A stretch of DNA of 64,000 nt, taken from the NCBI RefSeq assembly GCF_006335115.1, contig NZ_VDMJ01000028.1:1-64000 (forward strand). Direction: 5' to 3'. How positions within the stretch are numbered: the first letter of the stretch is position 1; every line of letters begins with the position of its first letter. The notes under the pieces are model-generated. The model worked only from the letters and a program-made list of their open reading frames with translations. It did not search any database and was not told where the DNA came from. The translations under genes were made by a program, and so were the position numbers. Positions 51,765 to 58,263 of the stretch are shown here, piece after piece. The DNA comes from Streptomyces sp. NP160. GTDB taxonomy: Bacteria; Actinomycetota; Actinomycetes; Actinomycetales; Quadrisphaeraceae.

Positions 51765-52550
51765 GTGCCCTCGCAGGTGCCCCGCCCCCCGGTGGCCGTG
51801 GTCCGGTGCGGTGGCCAGCGCCGCGAGCTCGCGCCGGGGGAGCAGCTCGCCTTCGGCCGCGGGCAGGGCAACGACCTGCGCATCGGTCACGACCCGGCCG
51901 ACCTGCGCATCCCGCGCTACGCCGGCCGCCTCGAGTGCCGCCCCGACGGCGTGCTGCTCCACAACACCTCAGACAAGCGGGCGCTGGTGGTGGAGACCTT
52001 CCCCGGCGAGCCGTTCGAGGTGGCCCCGCTCATGGTGGCCGGCACCGGCCCGCACGACCTCGTCACCGTGCGGATCGACGGCGAGCACGGCCGGTACGCG
52101 CTGTCCGTGGACGTCACCGGGCTCCGCGCGGCCGGGCCCGCGCCGCGGGCGCCGCTGCCCATGACGGCGGTGGTCGGCGGCCCGAGCAGCGCGACGGTCG
52201 GCTTCGCCCGGATCGAGTCGCTCACCCCGCGCCACCGGCTGCTGCTGTGCGCGTTGTGCCTGCCGTCGGCGTTCGGGTGGAACGGCCAGCACGGCACGCC
52301 GTCCTACGCCGAGATGGAGCAGATCCTCGCCGAGCGCGGACACCGCACCAGCGCCAAGACCGTCCGCAACGTCCTGGACGACCTGCGCCGGGAGCTGGCC
52401 ACCGCGCACGGCGTCGACGGGGTGTGGGAGGAGGCCGGCGCCGAGCGCGCGGGCCGGGAGTCGTACCTCCCGCGGCTGGCGCGGTGGGCGCGCCTGAGCG
52501 GCAACGTCACCACCGAGGAGCTCGCCGACTTCGAGGCCCTCGCCGGCTGA
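51765..52550 (+). CDS. FHA-like domain fused to winged helix
   Basis: A 261-residue protein. N-terminal FHA-like fold (about 10-105): LAFGRGQGNDLRIGHDP then IPRYAGRLECRPDGVLLHN. The FGR loop is kept, but the S-R-x-H phosphothreonine pocket reads PRYA, so ordinary phosphopeptide binding is doubtful. The C-terminal half (about 165-261) is helix-turn-helix-like: PSYAEMEQILAERGHRTSAK, TVRNVLDDLRREL. Next to two Ser/Thr kinases, so it may relay their signal to DNA. TACGCT 7 nt before GTG 51765 suggests a leaderless start. Confidence 0.75.
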   Translation: MPSQVPRPPVAVVRCGGQRRELAPGEQLAFGRGQGNDLRIGHDPADLRIPRYAGRLECRPDGVLLHNTSDKRALVVETFPGEPFEVAPLMVAGTGPHDLVTVRIDGEHGRYALSVDVTGLRAAGPAPRAPLPMTAVVGGPSSATVGFARIESLTPRHRLLLCALCLPSAFGWNGQHGTPSYAEMEQILAERGHRTSAKTVRNVLDDLRRELATAHGVDGVWEEAGAERAGRESYLPRLARWARLSGNVTTEELADFEALAG

Positions 52551-52677
52551 CACGACCTCTGACCTGCGAGGACGACGACGCCGGGCACCCGTGCCCTGCT
52601 GCGCGGAGCGCGGTCGGAGTTGTCTCTCCTCATCGCCACCGGCACCCCGCCGGGGCAGGCACACCGAGGAGCCCGCC

Positions 52678-53430
52678 GTGAACGCCACCAGCCCCGCCGC
52701 CACCGCCACCACCGCCACCACCGCTGCGACCCGCCGCAGCCGCCTCCGCTCCCGCGCGGCCCGCCTGGGCATGCTGGTGTCCCTCTTCGCCCTGCCGCTC
52801 GGGGTCGGCGGGATCGCGCTGGCCGGCGCGGCGAACGCCGCCGAGCCGAAGACCGTGCACACCAGCGACGGCCGGTCCGTGGACGCGCTCGGCGGCAAGC
52901 ACTCCGACGGCTTCGGCGCCGACGGCAGCTACGACCCCCACGCCCACGTCGTGTGGTGGGCCGCCGGCGAGCGCTTCACCGAGAGCCACCACGACGGCTG
53001 CAACCCGTACACCTTCATCTACGGCGGCGTGGAGACGGACCCGCGCTGCCCGGTCGGGCAGGTGACGAGCGACTGGAACGTCGACTTCACCAAGGACGCC
53101 CTTCAGCAGGCCGGCTTCCGCACCTACGACCTGAGCAGCAGCGACCTCACCACCTTCTGGGGCCTCGGCCTGGTGACGAACTACTACCACCACGTCGACC
53201 ACCCGCAGGACGACTACGTGCCCCTGGGCGGTGACGTGGTCCTCTTCACCGACGCCTCGGGCGAGCAGGGTGCCGTCGGCGTCGTGCTCGAGGCGAAGAG
53301 CGCGTCCAAGGTCAAGGTCACCGTCGGTGACGTCAGCGGCAAGCTCGTCACGAAGTGGATCGACCCGGCGACGGCGACGGTCCGCGGCTTCCACGTGACC
53401 AGCTACGTGACGCCGGACTACCAGGGCTGA
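52678..53430 (+). CDS. Secreted protein with degenerate CHAP-like domain
   Basis: A 250-residue secreted protein. A long basic N-terminus (RRSRLRSRAARLG), hydrophobic core and ANA-A cleavage near residue 55. The mature domain has GCNPYTFIYGG (Cys108), CPVGQV (Cys124), SDWNVDFTKDAL and GDVVLFTDASGEQGAVGVVL with a C-terminal beta strand. In CHAP amidases the WN position is WC (nucleophile) and GAVG is GHV (His). Both are substituted, so it is probably non-catalytic. The same domain ends the kinase at 56278-58263. GTG 52678 has CGAGGAG upstream. Confidence 0.75.
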   Translation: MNATSPAATATTATTAATRRSRLRSRAARLGMLVSLFALPLGVGGIALAGAANAAEPKTVHTSDGRSVDALGGKHSDGFGADGSYDPHAHVVWWAAGERFTESHHDGCNPYTFIYGGVETDPRCPVGQVTSDWNVDFTKDALQQAGFRTYDLSSSDLTTFWGLGLVTNYYHHVDHPQDDYVPLGGDVVLFTDASGEQGAVGVVLEAKSASKVKVTVGDVSGKLVTKWIDPATATVRGFHVTSYVTPDYQG

Positions 53431-53474
53431 GGTCGGCTCGTGCCGCCCCGTCCACCACGAGACGTGTGACGGCC

Positions 53475-53533
53475 GACGTGCAGGAGTCCCCTGCGCCCCC
53501 CGCACCGGGGGCCGCGGGGGACTCCTGCACGTC
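53475..53533. terminator. Bidirectional terminator, 17-bp perfect stem
   Basis: GACGTGCAGGAGTCCCC (53475-53491) pairs perfectly with GGGGACTCCTGCACGTC (53517-53533), 25-nt loop that itself can pair (CCCCC/GGGGG). Lies between the 3' ends of the secreted protein gene and the propeller kinase gene. Confidence 0.9.
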
Positions 53534-53554
53534 CGGAGTCACGCCCCGCCCTGG

Positions 53555-56182
53555 TCAGCGACCGACGTCGAGGATGCGCACCTGCCCCTGGTCCAGCAGC
53601 GTGACGTAGGCCTGCTCGCCGTCCGGTCGCACCGAGATGCTCGTCGGGTTCCCCCCGACGGGGATGCTCGCTGTGACGGTGTTCGTGGCGGTGTCGAGGA
53701 CGTCGACGGTGCCGGCGTCGACGTTGGCCGTGTACAGGTGCTGGCCGTCGGGGGCGAAGGCGATGTCCTGCGGCTTCGCGTCCACCGGGACGGTCGCCAC
53801 CACCGCGTGCGTGGCAGCGTCGATGACCCACACCTCGTTGCTGTCGTAGCAGACCACCGCCACCCGCGACCCGTCCGGCGAGACGGCGGTGCTGTGGGGC
53901 GCCTCGCCCACGGCGACCTCCTGGGTCGTCTGCCGCGTCGCCGCGTCGATGACGCTGATGACCCCCGACTCGTGGTTGGCCGTGAAGACGGTCTTGCCGT
54001 CCTTGCTGAACGCCACCCAGTGCGGGTTGGGGGCCACGTCCTTCTCGGCCACGACGGTGGCGGTCGCGACGTCGATGATGTCGAGCTTGCCGGTGTCGTG
54101 GCTGGGCACCCACAGCTGGGAGCCGTCCGGCGTCGTCGCCGACGCGAAGGGCCGCTGCCCCACCGGCACCACGTGGGTGATCTCGTTCGTCGCGGTGTCG
54201 AGGAACACCACGTCGTTCTGGTCGTACGTGGTCGCGCCCGTCTTGCGGTAGGTGCTGATGTAGGCGGTACCGCCGTCGGGGGAGAAGGACAGGAACTGCG
54301 GTGGCCCCGCGTCGACCGTGATCGTCGCGGTGACCTGGTTGACGGCGGTGTCGATGACCGTCACCACGCCCGCGTCGCGGTTGGCGACGTAGGCGAACCG
54401 CCCGTCCGGCGTCACCTCCACGAAGCCCGGCGTCTCGCCGACCGGGATGGTGGGCCCGACCGCCGGGATGGCGACGCTCGCCGCGGGCGCCACGGCCGCC
54501 GGTGTGCTGGGGGCGCTGGTCGCCGGCGTCTGCGCCGCAGGCCCCTCGACGGCGCTGGAGGCGGCCGGGGTCGCCTCGTCCGGCCAGAACAGCCACCACG
54601 CCCCCGCGCCGACGGCCCCGACGAGCAACAGGGCGACGACGACGAGGGCGACCAGGCCGCCGTGGCGCCTGCGGCGCTGCTCGCCCGCGCCGGGCGGCGG
54701 TGCCGGTGCCGAGGTGGGGGCGCTGGGTGCGGCGTGCGCGCTGCGCGGGGCCGGCGCGTGCTGCCGGGGCGCCGGCCGCTGCCCGGCGTGCGCTCGCGGA
54801 CGGCCCCCGTGGGAGCGGTCGACGGGGCGCGGCGCAGGCCGAGGGGGACCCGGCGGGCCGTCGGTGGGCCGGGCGACGGTCGGCTCGTCCGCCAGCGGCG
54901 CCGCCGCAGCGCGGGGCAACACGGTCAGCGGCTCGTTCGCGCGGGCCGGGGCTCCTCCCGGCGACCCCGCTCCGGGCGCACGCGGGCGGACCACCTCGAC
55001 GGTCTCCTCCTCGGCGCCCGCTGCACCGGCGGCGGGGGCCGCCGTCCGGCGCGCCTCGACCGTCTCCGCCGCCTCGACCGGCACCACCGCCTCGACCGGC
55101 ACCGCCGCCTCGACCGGCACCGCCGCGGCGGCGGCCGCCGGCAGCGGGTCGGTGGTGCGGTGCGCTCCACCTGCGACCACCAGGCCCAGCCCGACCGCGC
55201 CGGCGCCTGCGGCGGTGGCCGGTGCGCTGGCGGCGGGGACCTCCGGCGTCGCCGGCGTCGTGCGGCCGCGGTCGTCGTCGTCCTCAGCAGCGGGGGAGGG
55301 GCCGGCGGTCGGCGCGTCGCGCAGGTCGATGACGTCGCCGCGGTCCGTCCAGCGCACCGGCGCCGCCCCGCCGAGCGCCTCCTGCGCAGCCGCGGCCAGC
55401 TCGCCGGCGGTGGCGTACCGGTCGTCGGGGTTCTTCGCCATGCCGCGCAGCACCACGTCGTCGAGGGCGGCGGGCAGCGCCGGGTTCACGCTGCTGGGCG
55501 GCTCCGGCTCGGTGTAGAAGTGCGCGTACATGAGCGATGGCAGGTCGTGGCCGGGGAAGGGCCGCCGCGAGGTGAGGAACTCGTAGAGCATGCAGGCCAG
55601 CGAGTAGACGTCGGCGCGGGCGTCGATCGGCTGCGTGGTGAAGCGCTCCGGCGCCATGTAGTCGAGCGTGCCCACGGTGGCGCCGGTGACCGTCAGCGAG
55701 GTGCGGGTGGTGCCGACCTGCCGGGCGATGCCGAAGTCGACCACGTAGACGAAGCCGCTCGGCGTCACGAGGAGGTTGGACGGCTTCACGTCCCGGTGCA
55801 CCAGCCCCTCGGCGTGGGCGGAGTCGAGCGCCTGCGCGGTCTGCTCGACCAGGTGCACGGCCTGATCGGGCGTCAGCTCGCCGCTGGCGAGCAGCCCGGC
55901 GGCGTCGCGGCCGTCGACCAGGCGCATGTCGATGAACAGCCGCCCGTCCACCTCGCCGAAGTCGTGGATGGGGATGATGTGCGGGTCGCGCAGGCGCGCG
56001 GCGATGTGCTGCTCGCGGCGGAAGCGGGAGCTGTACTCGTGGTCGTGGCTGAACGCCTCGGGCAGCACCTTGAGCGCCACGCGGCGGTCGCGGACGGTGT
56101 CGTGGGCGCGGTGCACCTCGCCCATGCCGCCCGCGCCCAGCAGGGCCTCGAGCACGTAGGGACCGAGCGAGCGCTGCTCCAT
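53555..56182 (-). CDS. Transmembrane Ser/Thr kinase with extracellular YVTN beta-propeller
   Basis: An 875-residue receptor-type kinase. Cytoplasmic kinase domain (about 8-270): Gly loop GAGGMGEV, Lys38, HRDVKPSN with Asp131, DFG 149-151, APE 177-179. A long Pro/Ala-rich linker (about 290-505) contains three VPVEA repeats encoded by an 18-bp repeat near 55080-55130. One helix at about 509-532. The outside part (about 575-875) is a seven-blade YVTN/NHL-like propeller with units such as [25 protein letters not shown] repeats are absent. ATG 56182. Next to its paralogue at 56278. Confidence 0.93.
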
Positions 56183-56277
56183 GGCGCCACCTCCGCCGGC
56201 GGACGCTACTCGCGGCGAGCGTCGCCCGACAGGGTGCTGGCCCGTGTCCGCGCGGGACCCGCCGGGGGAACGCGCCC

Positions 56278-58263
56278 TCAGCCGCAGGCGAGGCGCACGT
56301 AGCCGGTGACCGGTTCGCCGCGCTGGGTGGAGACGGCGGGGTCGACCCAGCGCGTGACCAGCGCGTCGTCGTCGTCACCGACCACCACCTTGACCTTGGA
56401 CGGGCTCGCCGCCTCCAGCACGAGCCCGACAGCGCCGGTGCGCCCCGACGGGTCCGTCCACAGCACCGCGTCGCCGGGGCCGGGCGTGACGGCGGCCCCC
56501 GGCGCGTAGGGCGTGTAGTCGCCCTCCTCGCGGAAGGTGGTGAGGTCGTCGTCGCGCACCGCGTCGGGCAGGCAGCCGCCGTTGACCCACGCGTCCTTGA
56601 CGAAGTCGACGTTCCAGTCGCTCTTCACCTGCCCGACGGGGCAGGCGGGGTCGGTCTCGACCCCTCCGTAGATGAACGTGTAGGGGTTGCAGCCGTCTCC
56701 GTCGACCTCGCGGAACCGCTCCTGCGAGGCCCACCACACCGCCTGCTCGCCGTGGTCGAGGGAGCCGTCGGCGGCGTAGCCGCTGGGGTAGGTCGCAGCC
56801 ACCGCGTCCGGGTGGACGCCCGCGTCGCTGCCGCCCGTGGCCCTGCCGGCTCCGCCGGTGCTGGCCCCTCCTGCGTCCGCCGAGGACGACGACGAGGGCG
56901 CACCGCCCGCCGCGGCCTCGCCCGCACCCGCGGTGGCCCCGGAGGGCAGAGCGCCGGCGTCGCTGCCGGGCTCGGAGGAGGTGCCGGCAGCGGTCTGGCG
57001 GGCGTCGCGGTCGAAGGGGCCCAGGCCGAGGAGCATCGCGACCCCGACCGCCGCCAGCACGACCAGCGCGGCGCCGCCCACCAGCGCCAGCGGCGCGCGG
57101 CGGCGCCGTCGGCCCGCGGGACGCCCGGGGGCGGCGCTGCCCTGCCACGCCGGCGCGGTCGCAGGCTGGGTCGGCTGCTGGGTCGGCTGCCTGAAGGCCT
57201 GGCCGTGGCCCCCGCGGAGCTCGGTCTCCTGCGCCTGCTGGGTGCCCGACGCCGCCGGGGTCCACGTCGGCGCGGCGGCGGTCTCCGCTGCGGCGGCAGC
57301 AGCTGCCGCTGGCGGTGGTCCGGGCGCCCAGGTCGGCGCGTCTGTCGGCTCGTCGTGCTGTGAGCCAGTCGCCGCGCGCGTCGTCGTCGTCATCGCGGGG
57401 TCGGAGGGAGGCGGTGGTGGCGCCCAGCCCGGCGCGTGCTGGGCGCGGCCGCCGAGGGCCGCGTGGGCGGCGGCGGTCATCTCGCCGCACGTGGCGAAGC
57501 GGGCGGCCGGGTCCTTCGCCATGCCGCGCAGCACCACGGCGTCGAGGGCGGGCGGGAGGCCTGGCACCCGTTGGCTCGGCGGGACGGGGCGGACGTGGAA
57601 GTGGGCGTACAGGAGGCTCGGCAGGTCGTCGCCGGTGAAGGGGCGGGCGCCGGTCAGGCACTCGTAGAGCACGCAGGCCAGGGAGTAGACGTCGCTGCTG
57701 GGCTCCAGCGGTGCGGCGGTGAAGCGCTCCGGCGCCATGTACGCCAGCGTGCCGAGGGTCGCGCCGGTGGCGGTCAGCGACGTCGCGGTGGCGGTGGTCG
57801 ACCTGGCGATGCCGAAGTCGACGACGTAGACGAAGCCCTGCGGCGTGACCAGGAGGTTGGAGGGCTTGATGTCGCGGTGGACCAGCCGGGCGGCGTGTGC
57901 GGCGTCGAGGGCCTGCGCCGCCTGGTCGGCCACGTGCACGGCGCGCTCGGGGGGCAACGGGCCGTCGTCGAGGACGTGGGCGAGGTCGCGGCCCTCCACG
58001 AGGCGCATGTCGATGAAGAGGCGGCCGTCGACCTCGCCGAAGTCGTGGATGGGGATGATGTGCGGCTCGTTGAGCTGCGCGGCGACGTGCTGCTCGCGGC
58101 GGAAGCGGGCGGTGAAGTCGTGGTCGGCGCCGATGCCGTCGGCGAGCACCTTGAGGGCCACCTGCCGGCCGCGGACGGTGTCGACGGCGCGGTGCACCTC
58201 ACCCATCCCGCCCGCGCCGAGCAGCGACACCAGCTCGTACTGACCCAGCCTGCGCTGCTCCAC
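56278..58263 (-). CDS. Transmembrane Ser/Thr kinase with extracellular CHAP-like pseudoenzyme domain
   Basis: A 661-residue kinase whose first 270 residues closely match the neighbouring kinase (Lys38, HRDIKPSN Asp131, DFG 149-151, APE 177-179). Linker to 390, basic GRRRRR stop, one helix about 391-413, Ser/Gly/Ala linker, then a domain at about 500-660: GCNPYTFIYGG (Cys525), CPVGQV (Cys541), SDWNVDFVKDAW and GDAVLWTDPSGRTGAVGLVL. That domain matches the secreted protein at 52678 and looks like a CHAP amidase with Cys to Asn (551) and His to Ala (611) changes. Likely a cell-wall sensor. Confidence 0.92.
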   Translation of the reverse strand: MEQRRLGQYELVSLLGAGGMGEVHRAVDTVRGRQVALKVLADGIGADHDFTARFRREQHVAAQLNEPHIIPIHDFGEVDGRLFIDMRLVEGRDLAHVLDDGPLPPERAVHVADQAAQALDAAHAARLVHRDIKPSNLLVTPQGFVYVVDFGIARSTTATATSLTATGATLGTLAYMAPERFTAAPLEPSSDVYSLACVLYECLTGARPFTGDDLPSLLYAHFHVRPVPPSQRVPGLPPALDAVVLRGMAKDPAARFATCGEMTAAAHAALGGRAQHAPGWAPPPPPSDPAMTTTTRAATGSQHDEPTDAPTWAPGPPPAAAAAAAAETAAAPTWTPAASGTQQAQETELRGGHGQAFRQPTQQPTQPATAPAWQGSAAPGRPAGRRRRRAPLALVGGAALVVLAAVGVAMLLGLGPFDRDARQTAAGTSSEPGSDAGALPSGATAGAGEAAAGGAPSSSSSADAGGASTGGAGRATGGSDAGVHPDAVAATYPSGYAADGSLDHGEQAVWWASQERFREVDGDGCNPYTFIYGGVETDPACPVGQVKSDWNVDFVKDAWVNGGCLPDAVRDDDLTTFREEGDYTPYAPGAAVTPGPGDAVLWTDPSGRTGAVGLVLEAASPSKVKVVVGDDDDALVTRWVDPAVSTQRGEPVTGYVRLACG

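Follow-up and report, generated by a model that had tools for sequence, protein, structure and literature searches.

A CHAP-like domain lacking the catalytic cysteine and histidine is shared by a receptor serine/threonine kinase and a secreted protein in two Quadrisphaeraceae genomes

Background

PASTA kinases such as PknB and PrkC, single-pass receptor serine/threonine (Ser/Thr) kinases with an ectodomain that likely faces the cell wall, are the main worked example of how bacterial receptor Ser/Thr kinases are activated. The PASTA ectodomain of PknB binds muropeptides (PMC3145798), and over-expression of the PknB PASTA domain at the cell surface, like addition of the recombinant domain, disturbed growth (PMC4632501). 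In the secreted protein RipD (Rv1566c) of Mycobacterium tuberculosis, an NlpC/P60 domain has replaced catalytic residues and has retained peptidoglycan binding (PMC12067865). The present analysis deals with a stretch of 64,000 nucleotides (positions 1 to 64,000 of contig NZ_VDMJ01000028.1, assembly GCF_006335115.1) from Streptomyces sp. NP160, a member of the Quadrisphaeraceae in the GTDB taxonomy; the whole stretch is referred to as the window. It encodes a domain related to CHAP-type wall hydrolases twice, once as the extracellular part of a receptor Ser/Thr kinase, termed here the CHAP-like kinase, and once as a free secreted protein, and in both copies the catalytic cysteine and histidine are replaced.

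Results

Domain architecture of the kinase and the secreted protein

The CHAP-like kinase is specified by an open reading frame (ORF) of 661 codons on the minus strand (56278..58263) and matches the Pkinase family PF00069 with an E-value of 1.9e-41. The deduced protein consists of a catalytic domain, a Pro/Ala-rich linker, a transmembrane segment, a Gly/Ser/Ala-rich extracellular linker and the CHAP-like domain, in this order. The catalytic domain (about residues 9-265; 57469..58239, minus strand) is complete and of the Hanks type, with the motifs VALK38 (including the lysine K38), HRD129, DFG149 and APE177, and a single transmembrane segment is predicted by hydropathy at residues ~394-412. 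A complete catalytic domain, one transmembrane segment and a C-terminal domain that is extracellular according to the predicted topology identify the protein as a receptor Ser/Thr kinase. Among NCBIfam families, StpK7 (MSMEG_1200; E 2.2e-104, residues 2-276), whose kinase domain is homologous, fits the catalytic domain best; the match reaches 350 bits, compared with a cut-off of 900 bits for the full-length family, and stops short of the ectodomain. Matches to the PADLOC model PD-T4-6 were dismissed as generic kinase-domain matches.

The free copy of the domain is a protein of 250 amino acids encoded on the plus strand (52678..53430), with a GTG start codon and the ribosome-binding site gaggag upstream of it. 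A Sec signal peptide (52678..52842, plus strand) with a hydrophobic segment at residues 30-48 and cleavage after ANAA (residue 55) is predicted and is conserved among the four free copies described below. The ectodomain of the kinase (residues 488-661; 56281..56802, minus strand) and the secreted protein share 60% identity across 163 residues (E 1.6e-50); both ORFs are intact. A search of the whole 4.77-Mb genome with the secreted domain detected only these two copies.

Assignment of the domain to the CHAP/NlpC-P60 fold

Neither copy of the domain matched a Pfam family, even at E 10, and single-sequence searches against NCBIfam and the Protein Data Bank (PDB) gave no match; profile searches against the PDB yielded at best marginal matches to NlpC/P60 hydrolases. 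A profile of the domain family, applied to 396 genomes of the phylum, recruited four distant relatives (L067, L068, L069 and L071; E 6.7e-11 to 1.7e-4), all of which score above the Pfam cut-off for CHAP and contain the catalytic WC and HV residues. In one of them the motifs read NCNPYTAAF...GC...EEWCSDFANWVWMKAG...PGDAVVWGY...DHVGIV...SGN...GYITP, which is the motif order of the domain family. Alignment of the family with the four relatives by hhalign resulted in a probability of 98.4% and an E-value of 4.3e-15, whereby the DWN of the family was paired with the WC of the CHAP proteins and its GAVG with their HVGI or HVAI. The four relatives had been collected by means of the family's own profile; for this reason a second, independent set of five CHAP proteins, identified through PF05257, was also compared. 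The comparison with this set scored 34.9, compared with 20.5 for the best of 100 column shuffles, and hidden Markov models (HMMs) of both CHAP sets scored all five full-length members of the family above 500 shuffled sequences.

An AlphaFold model of the domain computed from six sequences had a predicted template modelling score (pTM) of 0.78 and a mean predicted local distance difference test (pLDDT) value of 76. Among solved structures, Foldseek ranked the CHAP domains of LysGH15 and LysK highest (probability 1.00, E about 2e-3), and in VIA-align the top rows, with Z-scores of 10-11, are nearly all NlpC/P60 or CHAP proteins. Based on the profile comparisons and the predicted model, the assignment to a diverged CHAP/NlpC-P60 (papain-like) fold is taken as established. 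The true CHAP proteins of Actinomycetota represented by the four relatives (NCNPYT...WC(A/S)DF...GDAVV...HV) resemble the domain in fold, motif order, the GD-V strand, the C-terminal GYI/V-P and, in most of them, a structural pair of cysteines; they differ from it in that they keep the catalytic Cys and His, are not kinases and are only 20-27% identical.

Loss of the catalytic residues

At the position of the nucleophilic cysteine, all six copies of the domain have asparagine, namely Asn551 in the kinase (56611..56613, minus strand), which was aligned to the WC cysteine of the four true CHAP relatives, and Asn134 in the secreted protein (53077..53079, plus strand). The corresponding alignment of the catalytic histidine placed an alanine at this position in four of five copies, among them Ala611 of the kinase (56431..56433, minus strand) and Ala199 of the secreted protein (53272..53274, plus strand), and a threonine in the fifth; the sixth copy is broken before this site. 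At the third catalytic position the aspartate is kept (VGD/IGD). Two cysteines, in the motifs GCNPYT and CPVGQ, probably form a structural pair and are not replacement nucleophiles, because true CHAP relatives have counterparts of both in addition to their catalytic cysteine. Two further cysteines (GGC/AGC and a C-terminal AC) are common to the kinase copies and absent from the free ones.

Judged by these substitutions, the domain is almost certainly a pseudoenzyme. An asparagine that is fixed and not random, together with the retained aspartate, would also be expected if the domain were an enzyme whose unusual active site employs another residue; but with both Cys and His gone, the His position occupied by Thr in one copy and the remaining cysteine pair probably structural, persisting activity appears extremely improbable.

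The original prediction, made on the DNA of the window without database searches, had described the C-terminus of the kinase and the secreted protein as the same domain in a CHAP-type layout, one copy on a kinase ectodomain and the other free, with Cys replaced by Asn and His by Ala at the residues numbered above. The coordinates, residue numbers and substitutions were all correct, the structural comparison bore out the layout, and the two positions do not vary freely among the copies. The functional part of the prediction, a peptidoglycan-binding sensor with a soluble competitor or co-receptor, is a hypothesis that is taken up below.

Distribution and gene order

Among 13 genomes of the family, the domain is present in two, the window genome and that of the congener Quadrisphaera granulorum DSM 44889. 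No further true copy was detected in 396 sampled genomes of the order, and none was found in plasmids, phages or viral contigs; apparent homologues in G368 and G078 lie in an unrelated lipoprotein and a transporter region and were rejected as chance similarity. The gene order of Q. granulorum matches that of the window, comprising a YidC-like gene, a putative regulator, the secreted copy, a receptor kinase with a beta-propeller ectodomain (the propeller kinase), the CHAP-like kinase and an aldehyde dehydrogenase. The predicted linkage of secreted and kinase copies accordingly holds in both genomes that contain the pair; it does not extend to two additional free copies of Q. granulorum, which are located elsewhere and of which one is broken, so that the free form does not always accompany an adjacent kinase. 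In this third free copy (L017 8331-8708, contig 24 of Q. granulorum), homology extends only to DWNADFVL without a continuation in any frame, and the contig ends 90 bp later, so that either a broken gene or the end of the assembly may be seen.

At the same site, one other congener has the propeller kinase alone, with neither the CHAP-like kinase nor the secreted gene, and two have neither kinase; the locus thus shows stepwise build-up or loss. The catalytic domains of the propeller kinase and the CHAP-like kinase are 69% identical and their ectodomains are different, which suggests an exchange of ectodomains after duplication of a kinase. The syntenic free copies share an insertion of five residues that is absent from the kinase copies. 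In the simplest history, a kinase would have been duplicated and its ectodomain then exchanged for the dead CHAP domain of the secreted protein, both before the two species separated.

A conserved element upstream of the free copies

In all four free genes (the window gene and those in L015, L016 and L017), the start codon is preceded by ~98 bp with 79-89% identity, whereas the sequence just upstream of this element is 36-68% and the coding sequence 57-73% identical. In the window the element is located at 52582..52677 on the plus strand and contains the palindrome GGGCACCCGTGCCC; CTCTCCTC, which is complementary to the Shine-Dalgarno sequence, occurs in three of the four copies. The core of the element has a single occurrence in the window genome and three in that of Q. 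granulorum, always in front of a free copy; it is absent from four other congeners and occurs nowhere else across the six congeneric genomes. A riboswitch was rejected, as no Rfam match was obtained and the RNA fold was no better than that of shuffled sequences. The element is most likely a promoter/operator.

Proposed role of the domain

These data led us to a model in which a CHAP-family wall hydrolase that had lost its nucleophile Cys (now Asn) and its His (now Ala), with the fold and the structural Cys pair kept, was fused as the extracellular part to a duplicated StpK7-like receptor kinase. The outward-facing dead cleft would bind, without cutting, a wall-derived ligand, for example a peptidoglycan stem peptide or a partner attached to the wall, and would thereby alter how the cytoplasmic kinase domain clusters or how active it is. 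The secreted copies, under the control of their own shared upstream element, would bind the same ligand and, as soluble decoys or as presenters attached to the wall, could determine the threshold of the kinase. The binding step has a direct precedent in RipD, and the PASTA ectodomain of PknB, with its muropeptide binding and its effect on growth, is a precedent for the step that follows. We assign the model as a whole a probability of about 0.45.

Divergence between the two species and competing explanations

Identity between the window and Q. granulorum amounts to 90% for both the kinase domain and the putative regulator and to 81% for the propeller. The ectodomain of the CHAP-like kinase is 67% identical; it is constrained, if loosely, because the adjoining linker and transmembrane region is only 41% identical. 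The syntenic copies of the mature secreted protein are 55% identical, compared with 90% for the neighbours. Ratios of non-synonymous to synonymous substitution rates (dN/dS) of 0.5-1.8 were not taken as positive selection, because third codon positions have a G+C content of 0.965 and synonymous sites are close to saturation.

Several observations weigh against the proposed wall-sensing role. The rapid divergence of the free copies would be unusual for a binder of an invariant ligand such as peptidoglycan. The genes for the kinase and the free copy have opposite orientations, are separated by a third gene and do not form a common operon. In Q. granulorum, free copies outnumber the CHAP-like kinase by 3:1, one of them being broken, and the free form may consequently have a role of its own. 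Moreover, a fold by itself reveals no ligand.

The divergence of the free copies and the ectodomain, which is much faster than that of the neighbours, would be expected of co-evolving surfaces in a protein-protein module, in which the dead CHAP domain has ceased to recognize peptidoglycan and binds a protein, either another hydrolase or a further copy of itself. In such a module the free copies would activate or inhibit the kinase or serve as its ligands by contact between domains. The dead LytM factors DipM and EnvC regulate wall hydrolases in this manner (PMC10336132, PMC10268282). The same explanation could account for a stretch of the window genome from CNPY to DWNVDF, in which the free and the kinase copy are identical in 33 of 36 residues, compared with 45% in the remaining sequence (permutation p 5e-5). 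The kinase and free copies of Q. granulorum, however, show no such match, and a similar stretch in the third free copy suggests retention of an ancestral sequence; furthermore, no active CHAP partner was found in the genome, in a survey that did not cover NlpC/P60 enzymes. This is the main competing explanation, and we regard it as possible, though rather unlikely. Recent gene conversion was rejected as the source of the 33/36 stretch, since synonymous sites in it have diverged to the same degree as in the remaining sequence (proportion of synonymous differences, pS, 0.39; saturation median 0.46, range 0.25-0.64).

The high divergence of the free copies, the truncation of one of them and the occurrence in two species only could alternatively point to a relaxed, lineage-specific module in which the fusion arose recently by chance and the free copies are paralogues that have no specific function and are undergoing decay. 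Decay of this kind is hard to reconcile with an asparagine fixed in all copies, with conserved GD and Cys positions and intact ORFs, with an ectodomain better conserved than the linker and a leader more conserved than the coding region, or with a gene order retained in two species, and we consider it improbable. Doubtful as well is the idea that the fast-diverging secreted dead hydrolases with their shared regulatory element are soluble ligands or decoys in a recognition system of receptor kinase and free ectodomain that serves self- or kin-specific wall signalling.

Neighbouring genes and intergenic sequences

The propeller kinase (53555..56182, minus strand) has a YVTN-type beta-propeller ectodomain. 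The putative regulator (51765..52550, plus strand) has an N-terminal half in which an FHA-like motif, GRxxxNDLxI, is recognized by eye and a C-terminal half that is predicted to be helical. Searches for an FHA domain in this protein gave no Pfam or PDB profile match, and the single-sequence model was poor (pLDDT 38). Among the 13 genomes it occurs only in the window genome and in Q. granulorum, a distribution identical to that of the module. A paralogue of the regulator in Q. granulorum (L084 7427-8215) adjoins a gene for a Ser/Thr kinase (L084 8246-11800) in which a STAND-type ATPase region is probable and no transmembrane segment is evident; this represents a second pairing of regulator and kinase. 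Between the convergent genes of the window lies an intergenic palindrome, GTGCAGGAGTCC...GGACTCCTGCAC (53466-53542). Related sequences recur after genes in several congeneric loci, with similar translated stretches in L015, L016, L095 and L096, which suggests a genus-wide element resembling repetitive extragenic palindromic (REP) sequences or a terminator.

Discussion

Receptor Ser/Thr kinases with wall-facing ectodomains are already known; what is new here is a dead CHAP domain as ectodomain together with free, probably co-regulated copies. In the literature searched, mostly without subscription papers, no report was found of a CHAP-type or NlpC/P60-type domain as the ectodomain of a Ser/Thr kinase. 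Like PknB and PrkC, the CHAP-like kinase is a single-pass receptor with a likely wall-facing ectodomain; unlike them, it has no PASTA repeats according to a Pfam search, its ectodomain is a disarmed hydrolase and a free secreted copy is encoded nearby. The suggestion that the locus represents a route unlike PASTA kinases is thus valid for protein architecture, but PASTA-containing Ser/Thr kinases are encoded elsewhere in the same genome, so that the route would be an addition and not a replacement. PknD of M. tuberculosis and the propeller kinase of the window are likewise receptor kinases and differ from the CHAP-like kinase in their ectodomains.

RipD resembles the secreted copy in that it is exported, belongs to the NlpC/P60-CHAP superfamily fold and has its catalytic residues replaced. 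It differs in belonging to the NlpC/P60 and not the CHAP branch, in the substitutions (Ala-Ser-Glu) and in that its peptidoglycan binding was shown experimentally, whereas that of the dead CHAP domain is a proposal. We know of no copy of RipD linked to a kinase. In Brassica, the S-receptor kinase is similarly linked to the S-locus glycoprotein, a secreted counterpart of its ectodomain; this plant system has unrelated domains and is an analogy in layout only.

Conclusion

The locus suggests that a former wall-degrading enzyme has been put to a new use, either in sensing the wall or as a binding partner. A disarmed wall hydrolase as ectodomain points to a likely class of ligand, the substrate of the old enzyme, and the free copy is a natural reagent for addressing the ligand of the CHAP-like kinase. 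The two related species illustrate how a sensor may be built by fusing a dead enzyme to a duplicated kinase.

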